A program made the position numbers and the translations under genes. The notes under the pieces are model-generated. The model ran no database searches. It was not told where the DNA came from and worked only from the letters and a program-made list of their open reading frames with translations. From IMG/VR virus record IMGVR_UViG_3300012202_000039, positions 1 through 64,000 of that record: DNA of 64,000 bases. One strand, 5' to 3'. This DNA is from a virus. Of this stretch, positions 16,987 through 38,553 are shown piece by piece; the stretch's first letter is position 1, and every line of letters begins with the position of its first letter.

Positions 16987-17028
16987 TGAATATTTATTCA
17001 ATTAATTTCTGTATAAGGAATGCATATT

Positions 17029-20000
17029 TTGATTAAAGGATTTGGTCGAACTGGTGTAGTTTCTTCTAAAGTCGGCGGTAGGTCTTTTACAGAAACCGCG
17101 ACGGATGGAGGAAATCTTAGTGGATTTGGTATCGGAGGTAATTACGGTTTAGGTGCATCAGCTATTATTCCTAACACCGATCTAGAGTTACTAGACGGTC
17201 TAATCTCGTTTAGAAGTGACCAAATTGTTCGGAAAGTATACCGGGATATCTATTGGCACGACGTTATTGCTGGTGGTGCCGTCGATATTCAATCTACTAT
17301 CCCTTTCTCAGATTTTAGCCTATCTGGTATCAACGATCCTAAAGTTCTCGAAGTCTACATGCAAGCTATTGAAAATATGTCTATCTTGACGTTGTTACCT
17401 TCAGTTAGGATCGACCAACTCGTCTTAGGCACATTTATCGGGGTAACTAACTTCGATAGAGAGATTAATAATTATACTTCATTAACTCCGATTAACATAG
17501 ATATGACGCAAATAACCCCGGCTCCATTGTTTGATATGGATCCCATTATTGATTTGCGTTTTGCTAAGGATACTCAGCGGTACCTGAGGAATACTAAAGA
17601 TCATAGGTACCAGCGTATCCGGAATAAAATGCCCCAATGGATGATCGATGGTATTTCCAAAGGACGCGTATTATTAGATTCAGCTAACGTCATCTACTTA
17701 CCTCGGAAGACTTTATCCACAAATAATCTCGGTACTTCCTATTTCCGTAGGATTTTACCGATACATATTATGGAAAAAGCTATATTACGAGGAAGCATAC
17801 AACAGGCATATAGAAGGCAACGAGCTATCGGATGGGCGCGAGTCGGCGACGATGAATGGGAGCCTACAAACAACGAACTAAGTTCTATTTTGAGTATGCT
17901 ACAATGTTTGACGGGTGACACACTTATATCTATAGAAAATAAACTTACACGTTTAGATAAGATTTGTTCGCGTAAAGGTATGCAAAAAGATGAAGGTAAG
18001 AAAATAAATCTAAAGATAAAAGGCAAAGATGGTAAAATAGTTACTGCTAATAAGTGGTGGTATCGCGGTTACGATTATGTTAATAACATTAAGACTGAGC
18101 ACGGATACTCATTAAAAGCCACAGATACTCATCGTATACTGGTACTTAATGACAAATTAAAATTAATCTGGAAATATACTAAAGATTTAAAGATCGGTGA
18201 CAAACTTTGTTTAGATAGTAACATATCTAAAAGTGAAAATAATACCCAATTAAAGGTAGATATTAATCTACCTACATTAGTTACTCGCCCGCAAAGTGGC
18301 GGTATGACAGCTAAAGCTATAGATATTCCTAAAGAAATGTACCCAAAATTAGCTTATTTATTAGGATTATTAGTTAGTGAGGGGCATGTCCATAAGCATT
18401 ATGTAGCTATAACTAATAGTGCAGAAATTTTGCTCGAAGAAGCTATAGATTGTTTTAAAGAAATCTTCTATCTTAATCCTAGAATTGAGTGGATGGATAG
18501 AATAGGACAAGAAATAGTTATAAATGGTGTGCATACGGGTACTACTAGAAGTCTATCTGGTGTAGTACGTGCCCATAGCATATATGCCTCTCATATATTA
18601 CAGAAGCTAGGCGTTAGCTCCAGTGAAACTCTTAGATTAAATGGTGATAAATATCCAGCAAATTATAAAGAAATTCCTTGGTCTATTCTTCAAGCTGATG
18701 ATGAATCTAAATATGCCTTTATTGCAGCATATTTAGATGGTGATGGCGGTCTCGAAGTACATGATACCAATTCGGGTAAAAATATACTTCTTATTATACG
18801 TAGTTTTAGTAAGAAATTACTAAAACAAATGCAGATAATGTTATTAGATCTAGGTTATCATTCTCATATATCCTATGATCTTAATAGGTTAACTATAAAT
18901 CGAAATAATGCGGCTAAATTATATGCTAAAATATCAAAGTATCTCAAGCACCCAGATAGAATTATTAAAGATTGTTCTGGTCAGGCTAACGATATGGGTG
19001 AAGGTATTCCCGTAGCCCCTATTCGGAAGTTATTTCAATCTAGATTCATCCGCTCAGAATATAGAAAACACTTTTTCTTAAATGATGAAGGTAAAGAAAT
19101 CAGTATTAAACATTATGGAGTATTTTTAGCTAAAACTTTAAGTCATAATACTCTTCGTACTGAAGCATATAATAGAGATGAATATAAAAATATATTAGAT
19201 GCTTTAAAAATTATTAGTAAGAAATTTTATAATACAGTTGTAGATTTACTAGGCGTTGGATATAGGTATGAATCTATTACCTCTATTACTAAACTAGCTA
19301 AAAAGCAACATTTATATGATTTAACTATTGATAAAAAATCAGAGTCGGCTTTTGTCGCTAATGGTATAGTTGTTCACAATTCTGCTGATATGGACCCTAT
19401 CGGCGCTTTTCTCGTAACTAGAAATGGTATTGATTATCAAGATATACGAGAAGGTGGACAGTTTTGGTCCTTCAATGATGTCTTCGATACCTTTTCTAAC
19501 GCTAAAATGCGCGGGCTTGGAATTTCAGAGGGATTATTATCCCAAGAAAATACGTATTCAACACTCGAAGCATCCATAAGTATGTTCATGGATCAAATAA
19601 AAAGTGATCGAGAACAGACAACGAGAGAAATGTTCACTAACCGTATATTCGCAAATATCGCTATTACTAACGATTTTAAACGTAAAAATCCACGGATGGA
19701 AGTACCTAACGACGCTGAACAATACCCAACTTTAAGTTCTATGACGACTAAAGGTAGTCCTAGGGGAGTACACCGCACTGAAGATGGCCGTTACTTCGCT
19801 GTTTGTAGTTCAGCTAGTGCTAGATCGCAACTAAGTGAATATCAGATACCCAGTGTTCATTGGCACAAACAGCTCGAACCTAAAGGTGATCGGGATTACG
19901 TTGATTTACTATCTACTCTAGAAGAAAAAGGTGTACCTGTTCCTCTGCGGGTGTACGCCGCATCCGTGGGTGTAGATTTAGATGCTATTGTTCAAGGTAT

Positions 20001-20367
20001 GGATAACGACAAGAAACTCCGTAAAGAATTTGCTAAGTTTAAACAAGAAACTGGTGGTGGCGGTGATGAAGAAGAACAAGGTGGTGGACAAGGTCAGCAA
20101 TTCGCTTCGGATCTGAGTAAAAGTGTGGGTAGTAGCGTAGCTCGTGTTGGTTTAGGTAATAGAACAACGGATGATCCCCGCTACAAGATTAGAGGTTCTA
20201 ATAATAAGGGTACACCGCAGGAACTTTCACGTAAAGGTGAAAAACTAGCTAACGAACGTATGCACAAGTTAGTAGCTAATATCCTAGCCGAGCGGCAACG
20301 TCAGGAAATCGTCAAGGAAAATAGCAAATTTAACAAACTTAAGGGTTTAAGGAAACCAAATAAATAG
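17029..20367 (+). CDS. Portal protein interrupted by an intein
   Basis: The start is probably TTG 17029, correctly spaced from AAGGA at 17015-17019; the ATG at 17020 touches that site. Removing the intein leaves a portal protein of about 620 residues. The N-extein contains DIYWHDVIAGGAVDI and a long helical core. The C-extein starts SADMDPIGAF and ends in a Gly/Glu-rich then Lys-rich tail. The pattern fits T4 gp20-type portals, which form the dodecameric ring through which DNA passes. The insertion lies between Gln and Ser near extein residue 292 (counted from the TTG). Correct splicing is needed for a working portal. Confidence 0.87.
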   Translation: MIKGFGRTGVVSSKVGGRSFTETATDGGNLSGFGIGGNYGLGASAIIPNTDLELLDGLISFRSDQIVRKVYRDIYWHDVIAGGAVDIQSTIPFSDFSLSGINDPKVLEVYMQAIENMSILTLLPSVRIDQLVLGTFIGVTNFDREINNYTSLTPINIDMTQITPAPLFDMDPIIDLRFAKDTQRYLRNTKDHRYQRIRNKMPQWMIDGISKGRVLLDSANVIYLPRKTLSTNNLGTSYFRRILPIHIMEKAILRGSIQQAYRRQRAIGWARVGDDEWEPTNNELSSILSMLQCLTGDTLISIENKLTRLDKICSRKGMQKDEGKKINLKIKGKDGKIVTANKWWYRGYDYVNNIKTEHGYSLKATDTHRILVLNDKLKLIWKYTKDLKIGDKLCLDSNISKSENNTQLKVDINLPTLVTRPQSGGMTAKAIDIPKEMYPKLAYLLGLLVSEGHVHKHYVAITNSAEILLEEAIDCFKEIFYLNPRIEWMDRIGQEIVINGVHTGTTRSLSGVVRAHSIYASHILQKLGVSSSETLRLNGDKYPANYKEIPWSILQADDESKYAFIAAYLDGDGGLEVHDTNSGKNILLIIRSFSKKLLKQMQIMLLDLGYHSHISYDLNRLTINRNNAAKLYAKISKYLKHPDRIIKDCSGQANDMGEGIPVAPIRKLFQSRFIRSEYRKHFFLNDEGKEISIKHYGVFLAKTLSHNTLRTEAYNRDEYKNILDALKIISKKFYNTVVDLLGVGYRYESITSITKLAKKQHLYDLTIDKKSESAFVANGIVVHNSADMDPIGAFLVTRNGIDYQDIREGGQFWSFNDVFDTFSNAKMRGLGISEGLLSQENTYSTLEASISMFMDQIKSDREQTTREMFTNRIFANIAITNDFKRKNPRMEVPNDAEQYPTLSSMTTKGSPRGVHRTEDGRYFAVCSSASARSQLSEYQIPSVHWHKQLEPKGDRDYVDLLSTLEEKGVPVPLRVYAASVGVDLDAIVQGMDNDKKLRKEFAKFKQETGGGGDEEEQGGGQGQQFASDLSKSVGSSVARVGLGNRTTDDPRYKIRGSNNKGTPQELSRKGEKLANERMHKLVANILAERQRQEIVKENSKFNKLKGLRKPNK
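17905..19380 (+). mobile_element. Full-size intein with LAGLIDADG homing endonuclease
   Basis: The 492-residue insertion begins CLTGDTLIS (block A, Cys1) and has block B at TDTHRILV. The two LAGLIDADG motifs are YLLGLLVSEGHV and FIAAYLDGDGGL. It ends with block F (HLYDLTIDKK) and block G (NGIVVHN), followed by Ser as the +1 nucleophile. All residues needed for splicing (Cys1, TxxH, His-Asn end) are present and both endonuclease motifs keep the acidic residue, so it looks active. It sits in an essential gene at a conserved coding site, as inteins usually do. Confidence 0.93.
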
Positions 20368-20864: not shown

Positions 20865-21689
20865 ATGCAACTAACTAAAGAGGTAATCTTAGCTAGGATA
20901 GACATTTCTTACCACGATAAAGCCGAAATAATTTACAATTCTATTAAATCCAGCATACTGAAGGGTGATTTAGTAAAAGTACAAAATGCGGAACTAAATA
21001 CTAAATGGGATACTAAAATCTTATACAGATTTAGCAATAAAGAATTTTACGAAAAATATAAGGATATCAAAAATATTCTATTCGCGGATAGTAATCACCC
21101 TAAATTTAAAGACGGCAGAGGTCTAGAGGGGTATAAAAATTACGTAGCACCATTAAAATTACTTTATACCTTTCATATTTATCGGTATGAAAAAGAAGTT
21201 AATATAATTTTAAGAATTAAAGCAAAAGAATTCAATAAAAACCAAATAACTAAGTTATTTGAACTAGATGCTTTAAAGGAAATAATGATACATGAGTTAA
21301 CTCACTATATACAACGTAATAAACTCGTGTATTTTGAATCACCTTTTAAGGAATATAAAAGAGATTATATAAAAACTAGGGAAGAACGTGAGGCTTTTCT
21401 TAATAGCTTAATCGTTATTCTAGATAAATATATATTCCAAAAAGATAAGTCTAGTCTAAGTAATATAAATGATTTTGAAGTAGCTGTTTTACATAAAATA
21501 CTAGATTTAGTAAAAAATAAAACTAAATCTTCTCTTAAAGGTTCTTATGTCGCTACCTATATTAATCTGTCCGAAAAAGATAAACAAACCTATATAGATG
21601 ATTTGTATAGGTATTTCAGGAAGAAATACAATATAACTAAGGAGGGACCGAGAACTAGCACTACTAAGTTATCTATAGGTAAGAAATAG
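20865..21689 (+). CDS. HELTH zincin-like metallopeptidase, copy 1
   Basis: This 274-residue protein has a zinc-protease motif HELTH (His143, Glu144, His147) followed about 27 residues later by REEREAF, whose Glu could be the third ligand as in gluzincins. The first 20 residues and the DNA encoding them are almost identical to the gene at 24074. The region around the motif (YFESPFK) and the ending YRYFRKKY are also shared. No signal peptide is seen. A basic, Ser/Thr-rich tail (residues 255-274) is extra compared with copy 2. The role, whether virion maturation, host attack or other, is unknown. Confidence 0.8.
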   Translation: MQLTKEVILARIDISYHDKAEIIYNSIKSSILKGDLVKVQNAELNTKWDTKILYRFSNKEFYEKYKDIKNILFADSNHPKFKDGRGLEGYKNYVAPLKLLYTFHIYRYEKEVNIILRIKAKEFNKNQITKLFELDALKEIMIHELTHYIQRNKLVYFESPFKEYKRDYIKTREEREAFLNSLIVILDKYIFQKDKSSLSNINDFEVAVLHKILDLVKNKTKSSLKGSYVATYINLSEKDKQTYIDDLYRYFRKKYNITKEGPRTSTTKLSIGKK

Positions 21690-23192: not shown

Positions 23193-23957
23193 ATGAATAA
23201 CCGTCCTTTTCATATCTATTCTGATTGTCTCGGCTCACTAAAACATGTAGAAGCCTTTGATTTACTAGATGAAAAACGTTCGGATAAGCTGGAGTTATTT
23301 AAGATTCAAGCTGCCGCTACGGATATGACTAAAGATATTAAAGAAACTATTGTAACTGCACCTAAGATTCTCCCCTTCGCTGCGGAGAAATACAATATTT
23401 CACCTAATATTAAAGATTATATTCTCTGTTGCGTAGTAGTTTTACCTTCAGATCTACCCAATAAAAATGGTATTGCTTTTTCTCATGCTGAGCTTAGTTC
23501 GTTCGTTGTGGATGCTGGATCACTATGTTATGATACGTTTAGATATCGTCCGATTCACCTCGAACATGCCAATAAGGACCCTAGCATAGCTAAAGGCATA
23601 ATTTTAAGCTCTAGTTACAAAAGAATGACAGGATTTAAAGGTAATTTGTGGAAAGTTATCTGTCTCTGTGCGGTTGACCGTAATCGCGATAAAGTTTTAG
23701 CCGATCGTGTTCTTAATGAAAAAGATACCGGTTTTTCCTTAGGTAGTCTATGTGCCGATTACCGTTGTTCTATTACTGGTAACCTTTTTAGTTCAGGACA
23801 AGCTGAGAATTATACTAAGTTAGGTAAACCTTCTTTCCAAGTTGTGGGGAATAATTTAGCTTTCTTAAATGCCATAGATTCCTTAATGTTTGAAGTTAGT
23901 GTAGTAGCTTCTGAGGCTTATTCTTCTGCTCGAACACCATATAAGATGACCTTCTAG
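23193..23957 (+). CDS. Prohead protease
   Basis: This 254-residue protein has the pattern of the T4 gp21-type prohead proteases of large myoviruses (herpesvirus-assemblin-like fold). RPIHLEHANKDP gives a likely catalytic His125. GFSLGSLCADY, with Ser182 or Ser185, comes before the Cys-containing CSITGN region. The usual spacing of about 55-60 residues between His and Ser is kept. It would cleave scaffold, core and capsid proteins during head maturation. Starts directly after the preceding stop, behind AAGGATACC. Confidence 0.82.
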   Translation: MNNRPFHIYSDCLGSLKHVEAFDLLDEKRSDKLELFKIQAAATDMTKDIKETIVTAPKILPFAAEKYNISPNIKDYILCCVVVLPSDLPNKNGIAFSHAELSSFVVDAGSLCYDTFRYRPIHLEHANKDPSIAKGIILSSSYKRMTGFKGNLWKVICLCAVDRNRDKVLADRVLNEKDTGFSLGSLCADYRCSITGNLFSSGQAENYTKLGKPSFQVVGNNLAFLNAIDSLMFEVSVVASEAYSSARTPYKMTF

Positions 23958-24073
23958 TATAAAAGGAATAATAACTGTACTATAAATAGCTAAAGATAGA
24001 ATTTTTCAAGCAATAGTCCGCACTATAATTGGGTTATAAAAAGATATATAAATTTTGACATAAGGTTATTATA

Positions 24074-24823
24074 ATGCAACTAACTAAAGAGGTAATCTTA
24101 GCTAGGATAGATATTTCTTACCACGATAAGGCTGAAGCTATATATAAAATAATTAAACAAGAAGTGCTTAAGGGAAAGTTAATAAAACAAAGTAACACAG
24201 CTTTGAGTAAACATCTAGATTCTACAACTATTTATTTATTAAATTCTGAACGATTTAATGAACTATATAAGAATACGACTATATCTTTCTCTACCTATAA
24301 AACTAGTTCATATTTTAACGAAAATAAGCACGCCTCTGGTTTTACGGATCAGAAAGGTAGTATAAAGCTGTTATATACATTTAGAATTTATACTTCCAAA
24401 TTTAAAAATGATCTCCATTTCTTAGTTCCACGGTTGAATAAGCAAGAAATTATATCTTTCTTTACTTATGATTTGTATAAAGATATATTTATTCATGAGT
24501 TAACGCACTACCTTCAGATACATAAACGTTTATATTTTGAATCTCCCTTTAAGAATGCTGATAATGATTACTTTAAACAAAGAATAGAACGAGAAGCATA
24601 CTTGAATAGTTTTATTGGAGATTTAAAGAATATCATTATAAAAAATCCAGAAAAATATCTACAGTCATTAAACGATTTTAAAAATTTAATAAAATATGAA
24701 TTAAGAAATGGCGGTAATGCTAAAGATATATTAGATAACCTATCCAATACTACGAGAGAGCAATATTATATAGATGTATACGAATATTTCAGGAAGAAAT
24801 ATAAGCAAGGACTAAATACATGA
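24074..24823 (+). CDS. HELTH zincin-like metallopeptidase, copy 2
   Basis: This 249-residue paralogue of the gene at 20865 has HELTH at His141, Glu142, His145 and IEREAY about 27 residues downstream. The 5' 60 bases differ from copy 1 at only a few sites, much closer than the rest, which suggests recent duplication or gene conversion of the start region. It ends YEYFRKKY like copy 1. Its stop overlaps the next start (ATGA). A 116-base non-coding gap precedes it. Confidence 0.8.
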   Translation: MQLTKEVILARIDISYHDKAEAIYKIIKQEVLKGKLIKQSNTALSKHLDSTTIYLLNSERFNELYKNTTISFSTYKTSSYFNENKHASGFTDQKGSIKLLYTFRIYTSKFKNDLHFLVPRLNKQEIISFFTYDLYKDIFIHELTHYLQIHKRLYFESPFKNADNDYFKQRIEREAYLNSFIGDLKNIIIKNPEKYLQSLNDFKNLIKYELRNGGNAKDILDNLSNTTREQYYIDVYEYFRKKYKQGLNT

Positions 24824-24993
24824 ATAAATTTTATCTCTACTCGCAAAGAGATTCGGTTCTAGAAGATATAGAAGAACAAATGCATAAACTTAAAACTGAA
24901 CACCAGAGACAGACGGAAGATTATAAAACACAAATGGAAAGTTTACGTAAACGTAAAGAATCTCGTATGCAGGGTCTAGGTAAGAACAAATAG
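24820..24993 (+). CDS. Hypothetical 57-residue coiled-coil protein
   Basis: ATG 24820 overlaps the previous TGA and the 57-codon frame ends at TAG 24991-24993. The middle is a continuous charged helix (residues 12-45) and the end is basic (KRKESRMQGLGKNK). Likely translationally coupled to the HELTH gene and possibly its partner. No family recognised. Confidence 0.75.
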   Translation: MNKFYLYSQRDSVLEDIEEQMHKLKTEHQRQTEDYKTQMESLRKRKESRMQGLGKNK

Positions 24994-25063
24994 GCCCTGT
25001 AAATAGAACACAGAATACCACTAATGGTACTCTAGTTTTTAAATAAATTGAAGGTAAATAGTT

Positions 25064-25873
25064 ATGTCAGTTAATATTGTTCAAAATAAGTTTCTTGAAT
25101 ATATCGTCAGCGAATGTCACGATCGTGGTAATTTAATCGAGATGAATATTCATCTCGTAAATAATGTACGTTTAGTTGGACATATTATTGGTTACGATGA
25201 CGATTCCATCATTCTTAATGGTCGTGGTAAAACGCAGATTGTCTTCAAGAAGGCTATTTTGACTATTTGTCCTGGCGACAAGGGTGACGTAAACATGCTT
25301 AAGGCATGTTTACCTGATACGCTTAGTGAAGCTGCGCTTAATAGGTTAGTAGGTAATACTAGTACATATAGGCACTACACTTCTTCAAATTTAGATAAAA
25401 CTAGCCACCAACCTTATTACGGTGAGCCCCAGACAGATTTAAATCCAGTAAAAGAACCTATTGATATAATCAAACAAGTTGAAGGTAAGGTCGGCGAGGG
25501 TAGTTGTAGTGGGATCGGCGGTGAGGTTAATAACCAGCTAATTCCTAGTTATGATGCTATCCTGAACTACCATAAGAATAAAGGTAATTCTGTTTCAGAA
25601 GAAGATAAGGTCAGTGATAATGCCGAGGAATCTCGGGCTCCTACTGAGAGAGAAGAATTTAATAAGTATCTAAAAGAGAAGTATTCTAGTTCAGATGATA
25701 AGGGACGTAAAGAACTTTTAGAACAATTAAAGCTAAAAAATAACATTGGCGCATGTTTTAGTGATCCTGATGATGATATGTATTATCCTAGTAATATGAG
25801 TAATCTTCTTTCAGAAGAAGAGAAGATTACTCAAGAAATGCACGATAATGGTACTGACAGTGTTGCAGTTTAA
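25064..25873 (+). CDS. Hfq-like Sm-domain protein with long acidic C-terminal tail
   Basis: In this 269-residue protein, residues about 8-71 match bacterial Hfq strand by strand. KFLEYIVSECHDRG corresponds to the Hfq N-terminal helix, MNIHLVNNVRLVGHIIGYDDD to Sm1 (Hfq SIYLVNGIKLQGQIESFDQ), and TQIVFKKAILTICP to Sm2 (Hfq SQMVYKHAISTVVP). The Hfq Tyr-Lys-His uridine-binding triad becomes Phe61-Lys62-Lys63. Residues 73-269 are acidic and low in hydrophobics, probably disordered, far longer than the tail of bacterial Hfq. A ring-forming RNA-binding role is inferred. Two perfect hairpins lie in its own reading frame. It directly precedes the FtsZ-like gene, probably in one transcript. Confidence 0.8.
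   Translation: MSVNIVQNKFLEYIVSECHDRGNLIEMNIHLVNNVRLVGHIIGYDDDSIILNGRGKTQIVFKKAILTICPGDKGDVNMLKACLPDTLSEAALNRLVGNTSTYRHYTSSNLDKTSHQPYYGEPQTDLNPVKEPIDIIKQVEGKVGEGSCSGIGGEVNNQLIPSYDAILNYHKNKGNSVSEEDKVSDNAEESRAPTEREEFNKYLKEKYSSSDDKGRKELLEQLKLKNNIGACFSDPDDDMYYPSNMSNLLSEEEKITQEMHDNGTDSVAV
25289..25313 (+). repeat. Intragenic hairpin, 10-bp stem, 5-base loop
   Basis: GTAAACATGC at 25289-25298, loop TTAAG, and the exact complement at 25304-25313. It lies just after the Sm domain coding region of the Hfq-like gene. Confidence 0.85.
25798..25832 (+). repeat. Intragenic hairpin, 12-bp stem, 11-base loop
   Basis: GAGTAATCTTCT at 25798-25809 pairs exactly with 25821-25832, inside the acidic tail of the Hfq-like gene, 41 bases before its stop. 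It has no T run, so it is not a typical terminator. Confidence 0.85.
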
Positions 25874-25899
25874 TTAAGTTCAAAGAGGAAATAATTAAG

Positions 25900-27027
25900 A
25901 TGTCTACGATTGATTTCCCCGAGTTAGATATTGAAACCTATATCTCTGCTGACCCTATCGACGTAGTACCAGATAATAGCAAGGGTTCACAGAAGATTGC
26001 TATTCTAGGCTTAGGTCAAGCCGGCGGACGTATAGCAGAAGCTTTCCAAGACATTGGGTATAATAAAACTATTTATGTTAATACTACCGCACAAGATATT
26101 AATAATATTGTCTATAAATGTATTATTGGTATTACTGGTCGACCAGGCGGTGCTGGTAAGAATATGGCTATTGCTAGGGAAGCCTTTAATCAATGTGAAT
26201 CAACTATTACTAACTTGATGACTAAAGTGTACGGTAAAGTTGATCATATTCTAGTATGTGCTGCGTTAGGCGGAGGTACTGGCTGCGGTTCCGTGGTTTC
26301 TGCTTTAGAATTAGCTAAGAAGTATATGCGTTATATCGGACACGCCGATGCAGATAAGCGAGTTGGGGCGGTTATTACTATCCCAACTAATGGTGAACTT
26401 AACCCGCAAGTATTAAGTAATACTCTAGAAACCGCCGAAGAATTATCTAGGTTAGCAGATAATCAAGAAATCAGCCCTTTGATTATGGTGGATAACGAGA
26501 AGCTTAAGCTTCTCTATCAGACTAAAATTCCTATTGCGAAGTACCACACAACTATTAATAATCTTATTGTCCAGCTTATTGATAGTTTTAATACTATTTC
26601 TAACCAAGCTAGTGAATACATCACCTTCGACGCCACAGATTATGAAACCATCCTACAATGTGGCGGTCATATGATTTCCGGGGTAACTCGGGTAGATAAT
26701 TGGTTAGATAAAGATCTAGTAGTTAAAGCATTTCGAGATAATTTGATGGGTGCATTATTATCCTCTGATTTCGACCTAACTACGGCTACTCACGGCGGTG
26801 TAGTAGTAATGGTTGACGAGGAGTTGATTAATACTGATGTAAATCTTCAAGCTTTTATTGAAGCTGGATTTGATTCGATTAATCTCCTATGTCCTAAGGC
26901 CACTATTCATCGTGGTTTATACAAATGTAAGCCGACTAAGTTGAGTAAAGTTCGCGTATATACCACACTAGCTGGATTAAAGACACCTACTCGTAAATAT
27001 GATAAGTTATCTGCTTTATTGAACTAA
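25900..27027 (+). CDS. FtsZ/tubulin-like GTPase
   Basis: This 375-residue protein has the complete tubulin/FtsZ GTPase signature. Loop T1 is GLGQAGGR (residues 37-44), VNTTAQD is at 60-66, RPGGAGKN at 81-88, and the tubulin signature GGGTGCGS at 124-131. A DNEKLKLL stretch mirrors NDKLL of FtsZ. The T7 catalytic loop FDATDYETIL keeps both aspartates (Asp244 and Asp247, equal to Asp209 and Asp212 of E. coli FtsZ). It should polymerise and hydrolyse GTP. It looks closer to FtsZ than to PhuZ of phiKZ-type phages. No FtsZ C-terminal peptide is seen. Phage tubulins centre or move viral DNA and capsids; that role is inferred here. Confidence 0.88.
   Translation: MSTIDFPELDIETYISADPIDVVPDNSKGSQKIAILGLGQAGGRIAEAFQDIGYNKTIYVNTTAQDINNIVYKCIIGITGRPGGAGKNMAIAREAFNQCESTITNLMTKVYGKVDHILVCAALGGGTGCGSVVSALELAKKYMRYIGHADADKRVGAVITIPTNGELNPQVLSNTLETAEELSRLADNQEISPLIMVDNEKLKLLYQTKIPIAKYHTTINNLIVQLIDSFNTISNQASEYITFDATDYETILQCGGHMISGVTRVDNWLDKDLVVKAFRDNLMGALLSSDFDLTTATHGGVVVMVDEELINTDVNLQAFIEAGFDSINLLCPKATIHRGLYKCKPTKLSKVRVYTTLAGLKTPTRKYDKLSALLN
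26497..26514 (+). repeat. Perfect 18-base palindrome in the FtsZ-like gene
   Basis: GAGAAGCTTAAGCTTCTC is fully self-complementary, within the codons for the NDKLL-like segment. It is short and may be chance, but it joins a series of intragenic palindromes in this window. Confidence 0.8.
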
Positions 27028-27040
27028 AGGAGTAACACAA

Positions 27041-27253
27041 ATGAACGAACCTAAGAAAATTTTACATATTACAGTTGGTTCTGATGATTGGTATTCTACT
27101 AATGTAGAATTGGAGCAAGTTTATAATTTATTTAAAAATGGTATATTAAATGCGCATAATTGTGTTACACAAAGAGGTATTGAAGTTAAGGCTATAGATA
27201 ATATTGAAGATATAGATGAAATTGTCATCAGGCGTAAGATGAAATTACCTTAA
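27041..27253 (+). CDS. Hypothetical 70-residue protein
   Basis: A small beta-alpha protein (KILHITVGSDDWYST, EVKAIDNIEDIDEIVIR) preceded by AAAGGAGTAACAC. It is the last gene of the Hfq/FtsZ unit, before a strong terminator. No family is recognised. Confidence 0.82.
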   Translation: MNEPKKILHITVGSDDWYSTNVELEQVYNLFKNGILNAHNCVTQRGIEVKAIDNIEDIDEIVIRRKMKLP

Positions 27254-27285
27254 ATAATACACCAAAACTAGCCAATTCTATATGG

Positions 27286-27320
27286 AATAGCCCTAAGGTA
27301 TCACCTTAGGGCTATTTTTT
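27286..27320 (+). terminator. Rho-independent terminator
   Basis: A 14-bp perfect stem (AATAGCCCTAAGGT at 27286-27299, complement 27303-27316), with a 3-base loop, runs into TTTT. It ends the long unit that includes terminase, portal, Hfq-like and FtsZ-like genes. Confidence 0.93.
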
Positions 27321-27341
27321 CGTTTAAAGTTATCTAATTTA

Positions 27342-27366
27342 TTAGATACTATTCAATAGTATCTAA
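27342..27366 (+). promoter_or_regulatory. Inverted repeat between terminator and next gene
   Basis: TTAGATACTAT at 27342-27352 and its exact complement 27356-27366 flank a 3-base loop, 22 bases after the terminator and 22 bases before the next ATG. It could be an operator or a 5' leader hairpin for the downstream unit. No clear -10/-35 pair is seen. Confidence 0.5.
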
Positions 27367-27388
27367 TTCTCTCCTAAAGGAATATAAA

Positions 27389-28309
27389 ATGTACCTAGGC
27401 CACGTAGTCAAAGCTGAAGCTATCCCTCAGTGGTTTTCTGATATGAATAAAGAAGGTCAACAAGGCTACTTAAAAGATCACCCTAACTCCAAGATTGCTC
27501 ATACAGTTAAGAATAATCCGAAAGCTTTGAAATCTGGTAGTAGGGGTGGAACTAATAAACCAGCTCCACACGATCCTAAGAAGACTCTAGATATTATCAA
27601 AAAGAATCCTAGGGTTCAGAAGGCGCTTAAACCAAATTCTCCAGAACGACAGGAATTAGCTGGTAATTTAAAGAAATATAAAAAATTAATGGATAAGACC
27701 TATAAAGGATTAGATTTAGAAACTAGAGATGCACTTAGGGCTACTTCTGCTAAACTAAAAGCTGGTAAGAAATTAGATGAAAAAGATATGCAAGGTATAG
27801 TAAATTTAACAAATGAATATACTAAGAAAAATAAATACGGATTAGGTAAGGCGGCAGCCAATGCAGTTGGTGCGGGTATTGGTGTTGCTGCTATGAACGT
27901 GGGCGGAGCGTTAACATTATATACTGGTGGTTTGGCAGGAACATTAGGAATTGGGGCAGCAGGTACAGCTGCCGCTATTGCCGCTCCTCTTGGTATTGGG
28001 CTGTTAGCAGTTGGCGCAGGTATATATGGGTATAATGCATTTAAGGGTATTAGAGGAAATTTTAGAAATTTACGAGGCAAAACTAAAATTAACGACAGAG
28101 AAACCCAAGAATTACTTAAACACAAGAATGAATTCAGTACTATTACAGCTTACTTCTACACTAAAGCAGAAGACAATACTCCCGATGATCCTATTCAAAC
28201 TATTCTAGATCACATGTCTAAGGCGGTGCAGACTACTAATCTCTCCCCAGAGATGTGGGCACAGATGTTAACTCCTATTAAAAGTGAAGCTAAAGAAAAA
28301 GAGGAATAG
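27389..28309 (+). CDS. Probable internal virion protein, paralogue 1
   Basis: This 306-residue protein opens with QWFSDMNKEGQQGYLKDHPN, a WxxxMxxxxQxxYLxxHPxSK motif seen at the start of many large-phage virion proteins. A charged helical region follows (RVQKALKPNSPERQEL, shared with the gene at 29178). Next is a Gly/Ala-rich hydrophobic stretch at residues about 155-220 (GLAGTLGIGAAGTAAAIAAP). The C-terminal module has ITAYFYTKAEDNTPDD and LSPEMWAQML, also found in both paralogues. The hydrophobic core suggests membrane contact, perhaps after ejection. Exact role unknown. Confidence 0.82.
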   Translation: MYLGHVVKAEAIPQWFSDMNKEGQQGYLKDHPNSKIAHTVKNNPKALKSGSRGGTNKPAPHDPKKTLDIIKKNPRVQKALKPNSPERQELAGNLKKYKKLMDKTYKGLDLETRDALRATSAKLKAGKKLDEKDMQGIVNLTNEYTKKNKYGLGKAAANAVGAGIGVAAMNVGGALTLYTGGLAGTLGIGAAGTAAAIAAPLGIGLLAVGAGIYGYNAFKGIRGNFRNLRGKTKINDRETQELLKHKNEFSTITAYFYTKAEDNTPDDPIQTILDHMSKAVQTTNLSPEMWAQMLTPIKSEAKEKEE

Positions 28310-28311
28310 AG

Positions 28312-29160
28312 ATGTATTTTCCCTCTGAAAAAGAATATTTTAAAATAATGTCTAGTGTTGGCAAGCTAGACATTAATATAGATTTAAATGAAATATTATC
28401 TTCAGTAATACCTCTACATAATATCAGGTCTTATTACGAAGGTGCTAAAGCTTTACCTAAGTTCGACAAATCTAGTCTCAATAAGATATCACAGTCTGGA
28501 ACTAAGTCTATAAATAAAGCTAAAACTACATTAAAATCTAACGGCGTTAATATAACTTTACTTCAAAGCTTATGCTATAAGTATGGTAAAACCTATCGTG
28601 CCGGCTTTGATCCACAGAAATTCGCTCAACATATCAAAGAAATTCACACTAAAGTATCAGTTAAAGAGTTACCTAAAACTATACTATTATTACTAGTCAT
28701 GCTTATAGCCTCGTTATTATTTCAAATGATATTATTCTCAATTATAGTAACCGGTTTATCCGCTGTCGGTATATCTATAGCTGGAGGCTTTATATTTACA
28801 ATAGTTAACATCATTTACTTAGTTCTAGGGGCGCCTATATTTGAAGAAACTGCCAAAAAATACGCAAATGAACATGGATTTGGAAATACTTATGTAACAT
28901 TATTTACTTACGCCGAATTTGCTAAATACGTAATTACTTTTGCACATGCCGGCGTTGCCGTCCTAACTATTGTAGCTTATAGAATATTAGCAGCAGTTCT
29001 TCATTTTTATACACATTATTTACAAAAAGAAAATGTAGATTTTACGGGTAAGAAAAGTGATATTAAGAATGCAGGTTACAAAACAGGACTAGCAGTTCAC
29101 GGTCTTTGGAATTTTTGTTTAGGCGGCTTACCCATGGTACTACAACTTATTCTTAAATAA
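28312..29160 (+). CDS. PrsW/CPBP-like intramembrane metalloprotease
   Basis: In this 282-residue protein, residues 1-118 are soluble. Residues about 122-280 hold five or so membrane segments containing the three site motifs of the PrsW/CPBP superfamily: PIFEETAKK with Glu178-Glu179 and Lys182 (EExxK), TFAHAGV with His212, and AVHGLWNF with His263 (compare HALWN of PrsW). LHFYTHY at His231/His235 is an additional His pair. These enzymes cut within membranes. It starts two bases after one paralogue and 17 before another, so it is part of the same operon and may process them. Assignment is by motif only. Confidence 0.68.
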   Translation: MYFPSEKEYFKIMSSVGKLDINIDLNEILSSVIPLHNIRSYYEGAKALPKFDKSSLNKISQSGTKSINKAKTTLKSNGVNITLLQSLCYKYGKTYRAGFDPQKFAQHIKEIHTKVSVKELPKTILLLLVMLIASLLFQMILFSIIVTGLSAVGISIAGGFIFTIVNIIYLVLGAPIFEETAKKYANEHGFGNTYVTLFTYAEFAKYVITFAHAGVAVLTIVAYRILAAVLHFYTHYLQKENVDFTGKKSDIKNAGYKTGLAVHGLWNFCLGGLPMVLQLILK

Positions 29161-29177
29161 TATAGGAAGCTAGAGAA

Positions 29178-29894
29178 ATGCCAGATAAAAAAGCTTTACA
29201 AAAAATTATCGATGATCCCCGAACTAAAAAGGCTATGCAATCTAACTCTCCTGAAAGACAAGCTTTAGCTAAGACAATTCTCAAATATAGAAAACCCGTA
29301 CAGAAAGTTTATAAATCTCTCCTACCAGGAGAGAAATTACTTATGGATGCTATAGCTAATAAGTTACGTAAGAATGAGAAACTAGATAAGAATGATATTA
29401 AGGATTTATCTAGTTTCACTCAAAGATATACACAGGAGATCGATCCCGCTTCCTATAAAAACATGTATAAGTATGAACGAAATAGTAGTTTACAAGGAGG
29501 ATTATTAGCATTCGCTTTAATACCTTGGGCTGCTAAAGGTTTAGCAACTCAATTTAGTGGTCCTCTTGTTGGTCTCGCGGCAGGTGTTGTTTCTTTCCCA
29601 CCGGCCGTAATTTTTGGTACAGCAGCTTTAGCTGGTTTATCTTTAGGTATGGAAATATATAGTGCATATAAAGGTATTAAGAATTGGATTATGCGTATAA
29701 GAGGTACGGATAAAATTGATACAGATCAACTAAAAAGTGTATTAAAACATCAACCTTTAAGTCATGTACATGCTTACTATATATCAGCGGATAACGATAA
29801 TTCTGAAGCAACCGTCGATACAATTCTAAAAGCCACGGCTAAAGCAATTTTAACTGTTAAAATTAATCCAGAGGATCTTATGAAAGCTGCGTAA
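29178..29894 (+). CDS. Probable internal virion protein, paralogue 2
   Basis: This 238-residue protein lacks the N-terminal HPNSK motif of its two relatives but keeps their middle (DDPRTKKAMQSNSPERQALA, compare NPRVQKALKPNSPERQELA at 27389). It also keeps a hydrophobic segment at residues about 110-165 and the C-terminal module VHAYYISADNDNSEATVDTI. The ribosome binding site is TAGGAAGCTAGAG. It may form a complex with the flanking paralogues. Function unknown. Confidence 0.8.
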   Translation: MPDKKALQKIIDDPRTKKAMQSNSPERQALAKTILKYRKPVQKVYKSLLPGEKLLMDAIANKLRKNEKLDKNDIKDLSSFTQRYTQEIDPASYKNMYKYERNSSLQGGLLAFALIPWAAKGLATQFSGPLVGLAAGVVSFPPAVIFGTAALAGLSLGMEIYSAYKGIKNWIMRIRGTDKIDTDQLKSVLKHQPLSHVHAYYISADNDNSEATVDTILKATAKAILTVKINPEDLMKAA

Positions 29895-29895
29895 T

Positions 29896-30720
29896 ATGTT
29901 AATATTTGCTACTGAAGATAAAAATTCTTGGTTCTACGATATGAATAAAGATCAACAGGATTTGTATATCACTAGGCATCCTAACTCCAAATTCGCTAAA
30001 CAAGCGTCACCAGAACAAGGTGACGCTGATGCTTTTTCTACACATATTTTAGACGATAAAAAAGTACAGAAGGCTACACAGCCTCACTCCAAACAGCGTA
30101 AACAAGCCGCTAATAGTGTTACTAACCAAGGGAAATTAATCGAGGATTATTATAGTAAACTGCCTAAGACTGATAAGCTTAAGTTAGATAGTTTCACTAA
30201 AAAATTAAGTAATAAAGAAAAGATATCTAAAGTAGATTTTAAACCAGTTAAAACATTCTTTAATAAATATCAAAAGTGGGTTAAAGGTTTAGATAGCGAA
30301 AAAATTGGTAAACTAGCTATTAAGGGTGCGGCCGTTTTTGCTATTGGCTCTTTCGTGGCAGCTAATATACCTCTAGCTGCTTTAGCTGGAGTGGTATTTT
30401 TATCTAGTAAGTTTAAAGGACCGGAACCTAAATTTTTGGGTCCAGTTAGGCAGCCTAAAAAAGAAGCAGAAACTGAAGAATCTGCACCTAAGTATACTAA
30501 ATCCAAGCCTAATATAATCGATACTGAATACGAAGAAGTTCCTAACGATGAGTATCTTGATCATAAACAACCTAAGCAATTGCAACATATCACTAGCTAC
30601 TTTAATATAGCAGCAGTAGATAATACTCCACAAATTCTAGTTAAGCATTTAGCTGATGCACTTCAGTCACATAACTTTACCAAAGAACAGTGGCAATATT
30701 TATTACGGCACCAATCATGA
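29896..30720 (+). CDS. Probable internal virion protein, paralogue 3
   Basis: In this 274-residue protein the N-terminus restores the shared motif (SWFYDMNKDQQDLYITRHPN). The middle (DDKKVQKATQPHSKQRKQA) matches the other two. A hydrophobic segment lies at about residues 140-172, then an acidic Lys/Glu linker. The C-terminal module ITSYFNIAAVDNTPQIL aligns with ITAYFYTKAEDNTPDD. It starts one base after the previous stop and overlaps the next start. Confidence 0.82.
   Translation: MLIFATEDKNSWFYDMNKDQQDLYITRHPNSKFAKQASPEQGDADAFSTHILDDKKVQKATQPHSKQRKQAANSVTNQGKLIEDYYSKLPKTDKLKLDSFTKKLSNKEKISKVDFKPVKTFFNKYQKWVKGLDSEKIGKLAIKGAAVFAIGSFVAANIPLAALAGVVFLSSKFKGPEPKFLGPVRQPKKEAETEESAPKYTKSKPNIIDTEYEEVPNDEYLDHKQPKQLQHITSYFNIAAVDNTPQILVKHLADALQSHNFTKEQWQYLLRHQS
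30003..30027 (+). repeat. Intragenic hairpin, 9-bp stem, 7-base loop
   Basis: AGCGTCACC at 30003-30011 pairs exactly with 30019-30027 inside paralogue 3. It is GC-rich for this DNA, so stable; no terminator features. Confidence 0.8.
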
Positions 30721-32342
30721 TTAATCTCGCTGCTTTCTACGAAGAACAAGCTAACGCTATTACTATCGATGAAAAGCTGATAGAAGAATTAATTCAATAC
30801 ATCTCAGATGTAGCTGATATATTAGAATTTGGTCCGTTAAAAGTAGAAGAATACAAGTTACTTCATGTTAGAAATTTTACTAATCAAATATTAAAAAATC
30901 ACCCTGTTCGTAATAAATATACCTACCTTTACCGTTTTCACTACGGTAAAGCTTTTGTACATATTAACCCCACTACTAATATCAAAGCAGTTAAATTTAT
31001 AGTAACTGCAACCGAACAACAGATAGAAAAGCCCAAACCACATAAAATTATTGCCTATACTAGTATAATTGATAATCTACCTCTAAGATGGGATCCTAAA
31101 ACTAAGAAGAATATTAAAACTCAGTTAAAAACTATCTACACCGAAGAAGAACTTCGGGTGATAATAAACCGATTTAAACAAAAGAACCCCGGTTCAGATG
31201 ATATGGATATCGCTAAATATTTGATGTTATTATTAAAACATCCGCCTAAGGGTCATGAATCTATCTTAGATGGTTTATCACTTAATGATGCTGAAAAACA
31301 AGTCATTGTTCAGAGTTTATCTCCTCACGAAATTAACGAAGTAATCGCAATTTGGCGAGAAAGTTTTCAAGGTAAAAATCATCCGATTCAATTCTTATTT
31401 AAAAATGCTATATTACGTAACAAACGTCGTGTACCCGTATCTAAACAAATATTAGATAATAAAACTAAACTTATTAATTCTTTAGCTATTGATAAAGAAG
31501 ATAAATATACTTTAGATAATAAGTTCTCTTATGTAGAAATTATCGATATAGTGGAAGCTTACAAAAAACGTACTGGTAATGAACAACCTACTATCTTAAA
31601 TCTTAGTGATCTTTTTCAAATAGTATTAGATGATTACGTAGCTATGAATATTCGCTTTATTCTAACTAAAGTGGGTACGGCGGATTGGCCGAAAATCCAT
31701 GAAGAACTTGATCACCAATCTTATTTAAATCCAGGTAAAGATATTAATTTTACCGATGATGAGCGTCTACCGCCCCATCTACTCAAAGAAGAACCAGATT
31801 TTTATAAAGAAGAAAAAACTCTTATTGAAACCCCAAGAGATCTTTATAAAGGTTTTATTAATTTTATTACATCGGGTAGACTATATATTAATGCCCGAGC
31901 CTACGAGACCTGGTATTTATCCGAAGGCATAGCAAATTACTTCGCTTTCGAGGTATACAAAGCCCACCCGTTTAAGAATGAATTTCAGCAGCCGTTTACA
32001 TTATTACCTTCTATCTTAACCTACGATAATCTAAAAGCTCCTATTTTAATATCTCCCTGGTATATAGCCGCTATATTAGAGACCTTCCCTGAAGCAGCTA
32101 TTAAGCGAGTAACGTCTAACACTAAATATCTCTTAGATATCAAGCGTGTCTCGCATCGTTTACAACGAGTTTTCGGAGAAAAGGGGGCTTATGCTGTAAT
32201 TTTACATCATGAAGGTACTAATAAACATGTTCATCCTATTTCTGCGGTAGAAGCTAAACCGCAGTCCGCTAATATTACTATTCCAACTGGTGTACCTTCA
32301 CGTCAAGTAATAGAATATTTAGATAATTATATGAGAGTATAA
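30717..32342 (+). CDS. Hypothetical large protein of the internal-protein operon
   Basis: The start is set at ATG 30717, which overlaps the previous TGA (ATGA); an in-frame GTG at 30690 is inside the previous gene. The 541-residue, Lys-rich protein has no recognised domain. It includes TYLYRFHYGKAFVHINP near residue 80, a helical middle and ARAYETWYLSEGIANYFAFEVYK (read in two parts) near residue 400. The latter's ETWYLSEGIANYFAFE could be an alpha-helical core. By position it is a virion or assembly protein. Confidence 0.8.
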   Translation: MINLAAFYEEQANAITIDEKLIEELIQYISDVADILEFGPLKVEEYKLLHVRNFTNQILKNHPVRNKYTYLYRFHYGKAFVHINPTTNIKAVKFIVTATEQQIEKPKPHKIIAYTSIIDNLPLRWDPKTKKNIKTQLKTIYTEEELRVIINRFKQKNPGSDDMDIAKYLMLLLKHPPKGHESILDGLSLNDAEKQVIVQSLSPHEINEVIAIWRESFQGKNHPIQFLFKNAILRNKRRVPVSKQILDNKTKLINSLAIDKEDKYTLDNKFSYVEIIDIVEAYKKRTGNEQPTILNLSDLFQIVLDDYVAMNIRFILTKVGTADWPKIHEELDHQSYLNPGKDINFTDDERLPPHLLKEEPDFYKEEKTLIETPRDLYKGFINFITSGRLYINARAYETWYLSEGIANYFAFEVYKAHPFKNEFQQPFTLLPSILTYDNLKAPILISPWYIAAILETFPEAAIKRVTSNTKYLLDIKRVSHRLQRVFGEKGAYAVILHHEGTNKHVHPISAVEAKPQSANITIPTGVPSRQVIEYLDNYMRV

Positions 32343-32343
32343 A

Positions 32344-32640
32344 ATGAAAACTATAAACGAACTTATATTATCTTATACTATTCCTATCGATCAATACTGC
32401 GACGAAATCGATAAATATTGTGAAACTGCTAATATTAAAATTGTAAAACCGTGCACCTTTAACGACTCAGTTTATTCTATTATTATAGCTAATATTTTAC
32501 ATTATGATAAATTTCGTGAACTTCTGACTAATATAGAGTTACTCTGTCGTTCACATGGTCGTTATGATATGTATATTATCTCTAGTTCTTTAGGTTTAAA
32601 AATCACAATTAAAGTCTATGATCAATATTTAAAGGCTTAA
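32344..32640 (+). CDS. Hypothetical small protein
   Basis: A 98-residue protein one base after the previous stop. It looks helical at the start (TINELILSYTIPIDQY) and has a beta-prone end (DMYIISSSLGLKITIKVYD), with four Cys spread through it. No family is recognised. Confidence 0.8.
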   Translation: MKTINELILSYTIPIDQYCDEIDKYCETANIKIVKPCTFNDSVYSIIIANILHYDKFRELLTNIELLCRSHGRYDMYIISSSLGLKITIKVYDQYLKA

Positions 32641-32643
32641 ATT

Positions 32644-33468
32644 ATGCCAGCACAGGGACCACATGTATCTACTACTCGCTTCCTAAATAAAAAAGCTACA
32701 CATAGTGATGATAATAAATCTGAAGAAAACATTCGTCATCTAATTAAAATATATCGAGATATTAAAACTATTACTGGTAATTGCCAACTTAAGGATGATA
32801 AGATTCTCATCTTTGAAGAGAATTTTAGCCAATTTGTTATGAAGTTAAAAGAAGATGGATGGAAGTTATCTAACCTTACTTTTAGTACGCACACTAAAAC
32901 TATATATATGAAGAAGGATGATATCGAGATAGGATTAGATAACCGAATTAATCAAAATCAAACTAGTCCGATAAAGTTATATATCTATAATACTATAGAT
33001 GAAGATTTAGATAATAAGCCCACGGGTATGTTACCGATGGATATGATAATGAATTCTCCAGCATATAAAAAAATGCACGAGGAAGAATCCGCTTTCGGTG
33101 ATAAACTTAAGAAAGGATTTAATCTAACCAATATAATTAAATCTTTATTAAAGTATTTAGTATCTAAGCAGGAAAGAGATAGTGCTAAAAAACTCTTAAA
33201 ATTATCCAAAGAAATTGAAGATTCTATCGATGAACACGAGGAACGTATACGTAGCGAAATGAAGTATTTAGCTCAAACTATTAACCCTCTTATTAACGAC
33301 ATTAAGAAACTCAAGGTTAGTATAGATGAATTAGATGAATCCGGGGGTAAACAGAAATTAAAGCAAAACTTAGATAACTATTTAAATCATTTAGTAGATT
33401 ACGTCCGTAATCCTCTGATTAGCTGTGCAGAAATAACTAAGTCTATCTCTGAAAGACTAGAGTCATGA
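32644..33468 (+). CDS. Hypothetical coiled-coil protein
   Basis: In this 274-residue protein, residues 1-115 are mixed and residues about 150-270 are long charged helices (AKKLLKLSKEIEDSIDEHEE, LNDIKKLKVSIDELDE-like), suggesting a coiled coil. It contains PTGMLPMDMIMNSPAY near residue 122. Its stop overlaps the next start (ATGA). A structural or assembly role is likely from context only. Confidence 0.8.
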   Translation: MPAQGPHVSTTRFLNKKATHSDDNKSEENIRHLIKIYRDIKTITGNCQLKDDKILIFEENFSQFVMKLKEDGWKLSNLTFSTHTKTIYMKKDDIEIGLDNRINQNQTSPIKLYIYNTIDEDLDNKPTGMLPMDMIMNSPAYKKMHEEESAFGDKLKKGFNLTNIIKSLLKYLVSKQERDSAKKLLKLSKEIEDSIDEHEERIRSEMKYLAQTINPLINDIKKLKVSIDELDESGGKQKLKQNLDNYLNHLVDYVRNPLISCAEITKSISERLES

Positions 33469-34463
33469 ATATCCCACGTATTGTAGGTAGATTATGTAAC
33501 TACGTAGACAATAAATTTTTCCCTCACCATATATACTCTTCTACTAAAATCACTTTAAAGCCTCTACCGGTTATGTGGTTTGAGAATGAGAAAGGTGATA
33601 AAATTTCTTTTATGTATGAAGGTAAGCCTCCTACAGAAGAAATGCCAGATATAAAAGACTACCCTTATGCGCATATGCGCATGAATGCTATTATTAGAGA
33701 TGATATTTTTAAACGAGATAAAACTGGAGATGATGGTGATAATATTATTGGTAGTAGGCAGCGAGGGTTTAATGGAGATTTAGCCCTTAGTCTGGCTAAT
33801 AATTCTAACTTAAAATTATCTGAAGCTATTGCGTTTTGTGCTACATGCTGCGAAAGATGTATGAATTTATTAGCGAATAAATTAGGTTTATCTTGGGGAT
33901 ATACGCCAGATAGTGAAGATGCTAAGAAAGTTAATACTTCTTGTGAGGTTTGCCCGCAAGTAGCAGAGTTATTTCCTAAAGATAGTATCAAGTATAGCAT
34001 AGAAAAAGCTTCTACTTTAGATATAGATACTCAGCTAGACTTTAAAAGATATTATCATACTGCAAATATAGATTGGTCATATTATGCAGAAGATGAAATA
34101 GCTAGAATAGTAGCTAAATTCTTACCTTATGATATTAAGTTAACTTCCAATTTAAAAGATAGTATACATACTTTTATAAATAAGTGTCAGAAAGAGAATT
34201 GGTTCGAAGTACAAGCTAAAGAATCTTATCGGTATCTTATTAACTCAGCTATACTTAATCTTATCTCTAGTTTAAAATCTAATTCTAAACAGCCCAAGAT
34301 ATTATTGATTAAGGCTAAGATATATCCTCTGTATAGTAATGAAGCCAATCTATTTATTCCTAAAGAAATGCCCTTATCTCGCTACCAACACGATATATTA
34401 GCTACTATTCTTAATAAAAATGTAAAAGAAATAACTCCAAAAATGCTAAAATATATCAATTAA
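33465..34463 (+). CDS. Cysteine-rich zinc-binding-type protein
   Basis: This 332-residue protein has a cysteine cluster at residues about 124-165: FCATCCERC and then SCEVCPQ, giving two or more CxxC pairs spaced about 30 residues apart, which fits a zinc site. The remaining sequence is helical. It is the last gene before a terminator, closing the unit that starts at 27389. Family not recognised. Confidence 0.8.
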   Translation: MNIPRIVGRLCNYVDNKFFPHHIYSSTKITLKPLPVMWFENEKGDKISFMYEGKPPTEEMPDIKDYPYAHMRMNAIIRDDIFKRDKTGDDGDNIIGSRQRGFNGDLALSLANNSNLKLSEAIAFCATCCERCMNLLANKLGLSWGYTPDSEDAKKVNTSCEVCPQVAELFPKDSIKYSIEKASTLDIDTQLDFKRYYHTANIDWSYYAEDEIARIVAKFLPYDIKLTSNLKDSIHTFINKCQKENWFEVQAKESYRYLINSAILNLISSLKSNSKQPKILLIKAKIYPLYSNEANLFIPKEMPLSRYQHDILATILNKNVKEITPKMLKYIN

Positions 34464-34481
34464 TATATCATGGCAAACATT

Positions 34482-34527
34482 AAATATAAATAGCCGGGAA
34501 TATATTCGCGGCTATTTATATTTTTAG
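34482..34527 (+). terminator. Rho-independent terminator
   Basis: A perfect 15-bp stem (AAATATAAATAGCCG at 34482-34496, complement 34509-34523) has a 12-base loop that can itself pair, and is followed by TT. It separates the internal-protein unit from the head genes. The 34528-34631 stretch after it is non-coding leader. Confidence 0.88.
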
Positions 34528-34631
34528 AGCTATTTTGGCATTTTTACTACATTAATAATTTATCGCATATGTTTGATTGAAGGTTGATCAAATATGTGTT
34601 TACTTTAGCCATTTAATGAAGGATTATTTTT

Positions 34632-37455: not shown

Positions 37456-38553
37456 ATGAAAGCAACTGTTGCTCGTCGCCCTGCTGTCCCAGCTTTACAT
37501 GCACGTTTTAATGGTAGTAATGAACGTATCGTCGGTCGAGACAATCATATTAATGCGGGTTCTAATAAGGAACTTCTAACCCGCATTAAAGATCTGGCGG
37601 AAATGGTCACCGCTGGTTCTATTGATATGTCGCCCTATAATAAGAATAATCAAGTTACTGCGGCTGACGTTCAAACTCGTAATCAAAAATTATCAGCAGC
37701 ATTTTATACCCAGAATAATTCCCGTCCGTGGGCAAATATGGGTGCCGCAGTTAGTGCCGATCTTTCGGAAGCCGCTGACCGTGAAGGCTTTATGCGTCGT
37801 CTCTTACTTAAGGTTGACGTAGCCAACGGAACTATTCCACGTATCCGCGTTAAGCAGAAGAATATTATCGCCTTAATCGCTTCTTCGGGGTTAGATAATC
37901 GGCCGGTATACTTACGTGATAAGTATATTACGCCTCCAGAATTTTATATTAAGCATAATATTCGCGTGGAAGAACGTGAAATTGTGCAGGGGTCTGGGGA
38001 TATTCTTGAAGATAAGTTCTTCGAGACCCAGGAAGGTATTATGGTGCAGGAAGATCGTAAGTTTATCTCTCTGCTAAATGATACTATTGGTATCGCTAAT
38101 AGTAATCAGCTTTTAGCGGGTGGTTTATCTCCTGCTACCTTATCACAGATGCGCACACAGATTCTACAGTGGAATCTGCCAGCATCTACTCTGTTAATTG
38201 CATCTGATGTGCTTAATGATATCGTTGGTCAGGGCGCAAATACTTTTGGCGGCTATTTTGATCCGGTGTCACAGTTTGAAATCGTTCAGACTGGTATGAT
38301 TGGTACCTTAATGGGTATGCAGGTTATCACGGATTCGTACCGTGCCCCAACTCTTAAGGTTCTTAATGCCGGTGATATCTGGGTACTTTCTAATCCAGAA
38401 ATGCTCGGTGCCTTTACGGATCGTGGTCCCGTGCAGTCACAGGAAGTTAATTCATACATGGAAGGTTCGCCCGCTCGTGGTTGGAACTTCTTTGAATTAC
38501 TGAGTATGACTATAACTAACCAACGGTCAGCCGTCCACGGAAGTCGAGTTTAA
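37456..38553 (+). CDS. Major capsid protein, HK97-fold type
   Basis: This 365-residue protein fits the large-myovirus capsid proteins. It has a helical N-terminal arm, then an E-loop/P-domain region (RIRVKQKNIIALIASSG, YIKHNIRVEEREI). EDKFFETQEGIMVQEDRKFI is followed by the A-domain pattern TLLIASDVLNDIVG, GTLMGMQVITDS and NAGDIWVLSNPEMLGAFTDR. Strong codon bias towards G/C-ending codons and a CAAAGGAATATAGG ribosome binding site mark it as highly expressed. It follows the probable scaffold and decoration genes. Confidence 0.87.
   Translation: MKATVARRPAVPALHARFNGSNERIVGRDNHINAGSNKELLTRIKDLAEMVTAGSIDMSPYNKNNQVTAADVQTRNQKLSAAFYTQNNSRPWANMGAAVSADLSEAADREGFMRRLLLKVDVANGTIPRIRVKQKNIIALIASSGLDNRPVYLRDKYITPPEFYIKHNIRVEEREIVQGSGDILEDKFFETQEGIMVQEDRKFISLLNDTIGIANSNQLLAGGLSPATLSQMRTQILQWNLPASTLLIASDVLNDIVGQGANTFGGYFDPVSQFEIVQTGMIGTLMGMQVITDSYRAPTLKVLNAGDIWVLSNPEMLGAFTDRGPVQSQEVNSYMEGSPARGWNFFELLSMTITNQRSAVHGSRV
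37550..37589 (+). repeat. Intragenic hairpin in the capsid gene, 12-bp stem, 16-base loop
   Basis: TTAATGCGGGTT at 37550-37561 pairs exactly with 37578-37589. It sits about 95 bases into the capsid reading frame. No T run follows. Confidence 0.85.

Follow-up and report, generated by a model that had tools for sequence, protein, structure and literature searches.

A tubulin-like GTPase family of uncultured large phages, frequently encoded near packaging and head genes

Most of what is known of phage cytoskeletons comes from jumbo phages that form a nucleus and encode PhuZ, and from plasmid-like prophages, which encode TubZ. TubZ is a type III partition GTPase of plasmids and phages, e.g., the RepX/TubZ of Bacillus plasmids. 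Tubulins scattered outside the Chimalliviridae have been noted in a survey of large phages (PMC11835377), and tubulin/FtsZ appears among the viral protein clusters of a hot-spring study (PMC8597652); the passages concerned in these two papers do not include the family described here.

The window analysed is a stretch of 64,000 nucleotides (positions 1 to 64,000) of a linear virus record of 79,973 bp, the IMG/VR record IMGVR_UViG_3300012202_000039. Its terminase and protease are approximately 30–40% identical to those of large myophages (PaBG, Lu11, NCTB and the PpuM phages), and its head and tail genes begin at about 13.5 kb of the window and extend to 45 kb or beyond (Table 1). Upstream of the tubulin gene lie the portal gene, at a distance of 5.5 kb, the prohead protease gene, at 1.9 kb, and an Hfq/Sm-like gene, from which a gap of 26 bases (25874–25899) separates it. 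The original prediction had correctly noted the closeness to the protease and portal genes and the 26-base gap. The Hfq-domain gene is probably co-transcribed with the tubulin gene. It is not a conserved partner, though: an Hfq gene is found in one of 14 tubulin-bearing records and is missing from the other 13, and an Hfq–tubulin module is rejected. The Hfq/Sm-like protein itself bears an extension of ~190 amino acids. Two further observations concern the same region. The intein of the portal gene (Pfam Intein_splicing, 6.6e-16) includes an endonuclease domain of the LAGLIDADG type, and two paralogues with a metallopeptidase-like HExxH motif (HELTHY) and near-identical N termini lie on either side of the protease gene (20865–21689 and 24074–24823).

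Table 1. Features of the window around the tubulin gene (positions are those of the window).
Feature	Coordinates	Strand	Basis or remark
Terminase	13514–15637		
Portal protein (phrog_16240), intein-interrupted	17020–20367	+	PHROG match
Head maturation protease (phrog_18299)	23193–23957	+	PHROG match
Lineage-specific insertion, about 10.7 kb, between the protease gene and the gene at 34632; holds the tubulin gene	23958–34631	+	Missing from L255 and other relatives
269-aa protein, Hfq/Sm-like domain at the N terminus	25064–25873	+	Domain search
375-aa GTPase of the tubulin/FtsZ superfamily (head-cluster tubulin family)	25900–27027	+	ORF, Pfam, TIGR00065, TubZ match, AlphaFold, tree
T4 glycine loop GGGTGCGS codons, residues 124–131	26269–26292	+	ORF translation, alignment
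T7 catalytic Asp244-x-x-Asp247 codons	26629–26640	+	All 50 family members have D244 and D or E at 247
Family signature H337-R-G339-L-Y341 codons	26908–26922	+	H-x-G-x-Y motif, family comparison
70-aa ORF of unknown function, 3′ of the tubulin gene	27041–27253	+	
Strong intrinsic-terminator-like hairpin, 16 pairs, T-rich tail	27284–27318	+	Ends the Hfq–tubulin–70-aa run
Major head protein (phrog_2522)	37456–38553	+	PHROG match
Tail sheath	42367–44979		

The tubulin ORF is intact, with an ATG start and a Shine–Dalgarno-like AGAGG upstream. In the translation and the alignment, the T1 loop (GLGQAGGR, residues 37–44), the T4 loop and the Asp-x-x-Asp of T7 (within FDATDY) are all present as first proposed. 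The T6 stretch is DNEKL (residues 198–202). Its proposed equivalence to the NDKL of FtsZ does not hold, as T6 here carries the “DN” common to TubZ, CetZ and archaeal FtsZ2, whereas FtsZ has “PN”. The protein matches the Pfam Tubulin family (PF00091) with E=2.8e-10 and 41.2 bits against a cut-off of 33, and the FtsZ equivalog model TIGR00065 of NCBIfam with 1.7e-11 and 44 bits, which does not reach the cut-off of 295.2. TubZ is matched in the PDB at 5e-14 from the single sequence and at 1.3e-31 from the family profile. Structure prediction, one of the checks proposed at the outset, gave an AlphaFold2 model (35 family members as input) with a pLDDT of 91.1 and a pTM of 0.89. In Foldseek searches with this model, TubZ was the top match (TM 0.78), with CetZ at 0.71 and FtsZ at about 0.65; the top-scoring predicted viral protein was A0A6J5RW92 in BFVD (TM 0.84), with PhuZ at about 0.53. 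Because of these scores, the tubulin identity is far above chance. Judged by sequence and model, the protein is a true tubulin-fold GTPase with its GTP-binding and catalytic loops intact. The “FtsZ-like GTPase” of the original prediction stands as a tubulin-superfamily GTPase, but not as one specifically like FtsZ, since TubZ is closest in both fold and sequence.

Single-protein scans of viral contigs and genome contigs returned no relatives of the window tubulin, and an alignment of nine sequences was too divergent as a search query. The family was opened by a small alignment that led to 32 loci. The next round led to 239 IMG/VR contigs, the best 80 of which were kept; relatives of the window tubulin are present on at least 239 IMG/VR contigs. 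In genome contigs, the family search recovered archaeal FtsZ-like proteins and long bacterial tubulins only. A tblastn search of 50,697 public phage records with three members found gp138 of phage G alone, a distant TubZ-like protein of 23–26% identity; by contrast, phiKZ PhuZ as query found 179 records. The closest known relatives by tblastn are TubZ-like plasmid proteins. The gp137 and gp138 genes of phage G (L002:11692–13119) resemble a TubR–TubZ pair, with weak winged-helix-type matches for gp137. The family has probably been overlooked so far because its members scarcely occur in public collections of phage genomes. Searches of open-access papers found no description of the clade, its signature, its abundance or its packaging-gene setting; a survey of chimallin/phuZ phage diversity may overlap. 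The protein, being a tubulin, is of a known kind, with the clade, signature, abundance in uncultured phages and packaging setting apparently undescribed.

A tree had also been proposed as a check. When 64 sequences were analysed with IQ-TREE, the 34 viral representatives all fell into one clan (support 99.1/99) outside FtsZ, CetZ, TubZ and PhuZ. Contamination by host FtsZ is ruled out, as the contig belongs to a virus record and the tree leaves FtsZ outside the viral clan. PhuZ identity is likewise ruled out, as the PhuZ clan (100/100) leaves the window tubulin outside. Near the C terminus, an H-x-G-x-Y motif is shared by 50 of 50 family members, the window protein included, and is found in none of 30 other tubulins. 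Among 50 representatives, N61, G84, G125, G126, G128, G130, D198, N199 and D244 are invariant, and position 247 is D or E. The family is under purifying selection where measured: dN was about 0.04–0.21 and dS 1.2–3.9 in the five of eight pairs where dS was estimable. Thirteen large virus records encode exactly one tubulin apiece. As a separate observation, two bacterial MAGs (L155 and L156, one of them Myxococcota) encode a second chromosomal tubulin of ~670–740 amino acids besides FtsZ, in which a GxY stretch aligns with the viral signature.

The genomic setting was compared across 51 loci, a set dereplicated at 90% identity. A portal, terminase, protease or capsid gene lies within about 10 kb in 37 of them, and 33 of these 37 have a portal or portal-like gene. 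Three arrangements recur. In the first, the order is terminase, portal-like fam2, tubulin, protease-like fam9 and capsid-like fam18. In the second (L011, L055), the tubulin gene is followed, in this order, by a T4-type portal, protease, scaffold and capsid, with PHROG E-values down to 5e-95. In the third, a portal-like fam3 gene lies 2–4 kb upstream of the tubulin gene. The names of fam2, fam3, fam9 and fam18 were given by position and, for the first three, also by weak PHROG matches (E 0.011–0.43 for the better ones of fam2 and fam3). When the neighbour families were aligned to portal references with hhalign, neither fam2 nor fam3 was supported, PDB profile searches with fam2, fam3 and fam18 gave nothing useful, and fam2 is named portal-like only, since its AlphaFold model failed (pLDDT 48). 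Among 14 records of at least 100 kb, a portal-like gene is located within 5 kb in eight, with 0.9 expected; with lineages collapsed, this becomes three of nine (P=0.017, roughly estimated). Four large records have the portal gene 17–66 kb away from the tubulin gene, and some tubulin loci adjoin replication, recombination or tail genes. Linkage to packaging and head genes is frequent but not universal. Genes starting MPFKSxAQRxWMxxxxPxMAxRW were also seen to recur near the tubulin gene at L022, L017, L060 and L065.

There is an even chance, in our estimate, that the protein forms a GTP-driven filament by which capsids or packaging complexes are positioned in the late phase of infection. From its fold and intact loops, it is predicted to bind and hydrolyze GTP and to form filaments. 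The tubulin would be made late, alongside the head proteins, and would form head-to-tail polymers with GTP, in which each subunit's T7 loop sets off hydrolysis in the adjoining subunit. Growing or moving filaments could then bring proheads, portals or DNA ready for packaging into position within the cell, an effect that may be likened to the capsid transport of PhuZ. Placement of capsids or DNA, as originally suggested, is still the best reading; the interference with host division suggested alongside it has gained no pointer.

The filament might instead segregate an extrachromosomal phage genome in a pseudolysogenic or carrier state, as in phage-plasmids. TubZ is the closest solved fold and sequence, and TubZ-like plasmid proteins are closest by tblastn, which speaks for such a partition role. 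However, the gene sits among structural genes with an Hfq-domain protein upstream, and no iteron-like clustered repeats were found in 22–30 kb. No winged-helix partner was recognized alongside: the neighbours (Hfq-domain, coiled-coil-like and 70-aa ORFs) gave no HTH match, in a weak Pfam test in which most plasmid TubZ neighbours likewise gave none. Partition is unlikely, since neither a TubR-like gene (by that weak test) nor iterons were found. On these same grounds the protein is probably not a classical TubZ; in the tree it does not group inside the TubZ sequences.

Alternatively, the head cluster could be plastic at this point and the tubulin gene accessory cargo there, with a role not tied to heads. 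The protease gene, the homologue of the 34632 gene and the capsid gene are closely consecutive in the relative L255, hence the insertion of about 10.7 kb in the window phage, which holds the tubulin gene, the Hfq-domain gene and further accessory genes. A protease profile recovered 57 relatives of the window head cluster, none with a recognizable tubulin within stretches of at most about 20 kb. It follows from the insertion that the tubulin entered the head cluster separately in the window lineage, through an insertion of its own into a cluster of PaBG-like type, and the window arrangement differs from those of the other loci. Separate arrival may reflect either a functional association or a hotspot effect, and the placement of this copy inside an insertion means that the latter may apply here. 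Yet the linkage is repeated in other lineages with differing gene orders and near-coupled starts, and cargo of this kind is a distinctly unlikely explanation. The insertion also encodes three related-looking proteins (27389–28309, 29178–29894 and 29896–30720), two of which share “WFxDMNKxxQxxYxxxHPNSKxA”.

It is also quite unlikely that the GTPase aids nucleation of portal or prohead assembly without long filaments. At 11 loci the tubulin start lies 10 bp or less from the end of the portal-like fam2 gene, as such a role would have it, but the fam2 portal call is weak and the portal is distant in several lineages. As a decoy, the protein would co-assemble with host FtsZ or poison it, so that the cell enlarges. 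The tubulin fold with FtsZ-family similarity speaks for this role, but the role is very unlikely: the protein is full-length rather than a short inhibitor, has conserved catalytic residues, belongs to a family under purifying selection, gains 44 bits on the FtsZ model and is closer to TubZ than to FtsZ.

Returning to the favoured filament that places capsids or packaging complexes, a wider proposal may be put forward tentatively. The family would be a third class of phage tubulin, common among uncultured large phages for which no nucleus shell is known and working with the portal and packaging machinery, as a filament or GTPase coupled to prohead assembly or placement and gained more than once into head clusters. 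A chimallin shell probe found no match in 14 tubulin-bearing records, the same probe being blank in two of four PhuZ-bearing records. The family suggests that phages beyond those already known may use a cytoskeleton during particle building. A separate tubulin family, widespread in other large phages and in many of these linked to packaging genes, would make active intracellular organization in virion assembly more general than thought, and it offers single genes that are open to direct tests.

Compared with the known systems, FtsZ shares the tubulin-superfamily fold and the GTP loops with the window protein but differs in its separate clan, its T6 motif and the low score on its model (44 bits against 295.2). 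PhuZ is likewise a phage-encoded tubulin of large phages, and capsid transport is possibly common to both. The original prediction stated that PhuZ-type tubulins usually lack FtsZ-like T7 details, yet the PhuZ of phiKZ and of RAY both keep the Asp-x-x-Asp. PhuZ differs in its own clan (100/100), its altered T4 loop and its fold (TM about 0.53), and phiKZ PhuZ is undetected by the family HMM at E<=10. TubZ is the top match in fold (TM 0.78) and in sequence, and both have DN at T6 and FDxx(D/E) at T7. However, the viral family is a separate clan (99.1/99) with its H-x-G-x-Y signature, TubZ itself being non-monophyletic in the tree, and the window protein has a structural-gene setting and no long C-terminal tail. 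Finally, A0A6J5RW92, “FtsZ Cell division GTPase” of an uncultured Caudovirales phage, is 28% identical to the window tubulin (TM 0.84) and, by its predicted fold, is probably a family member already deposited under an automatic name.
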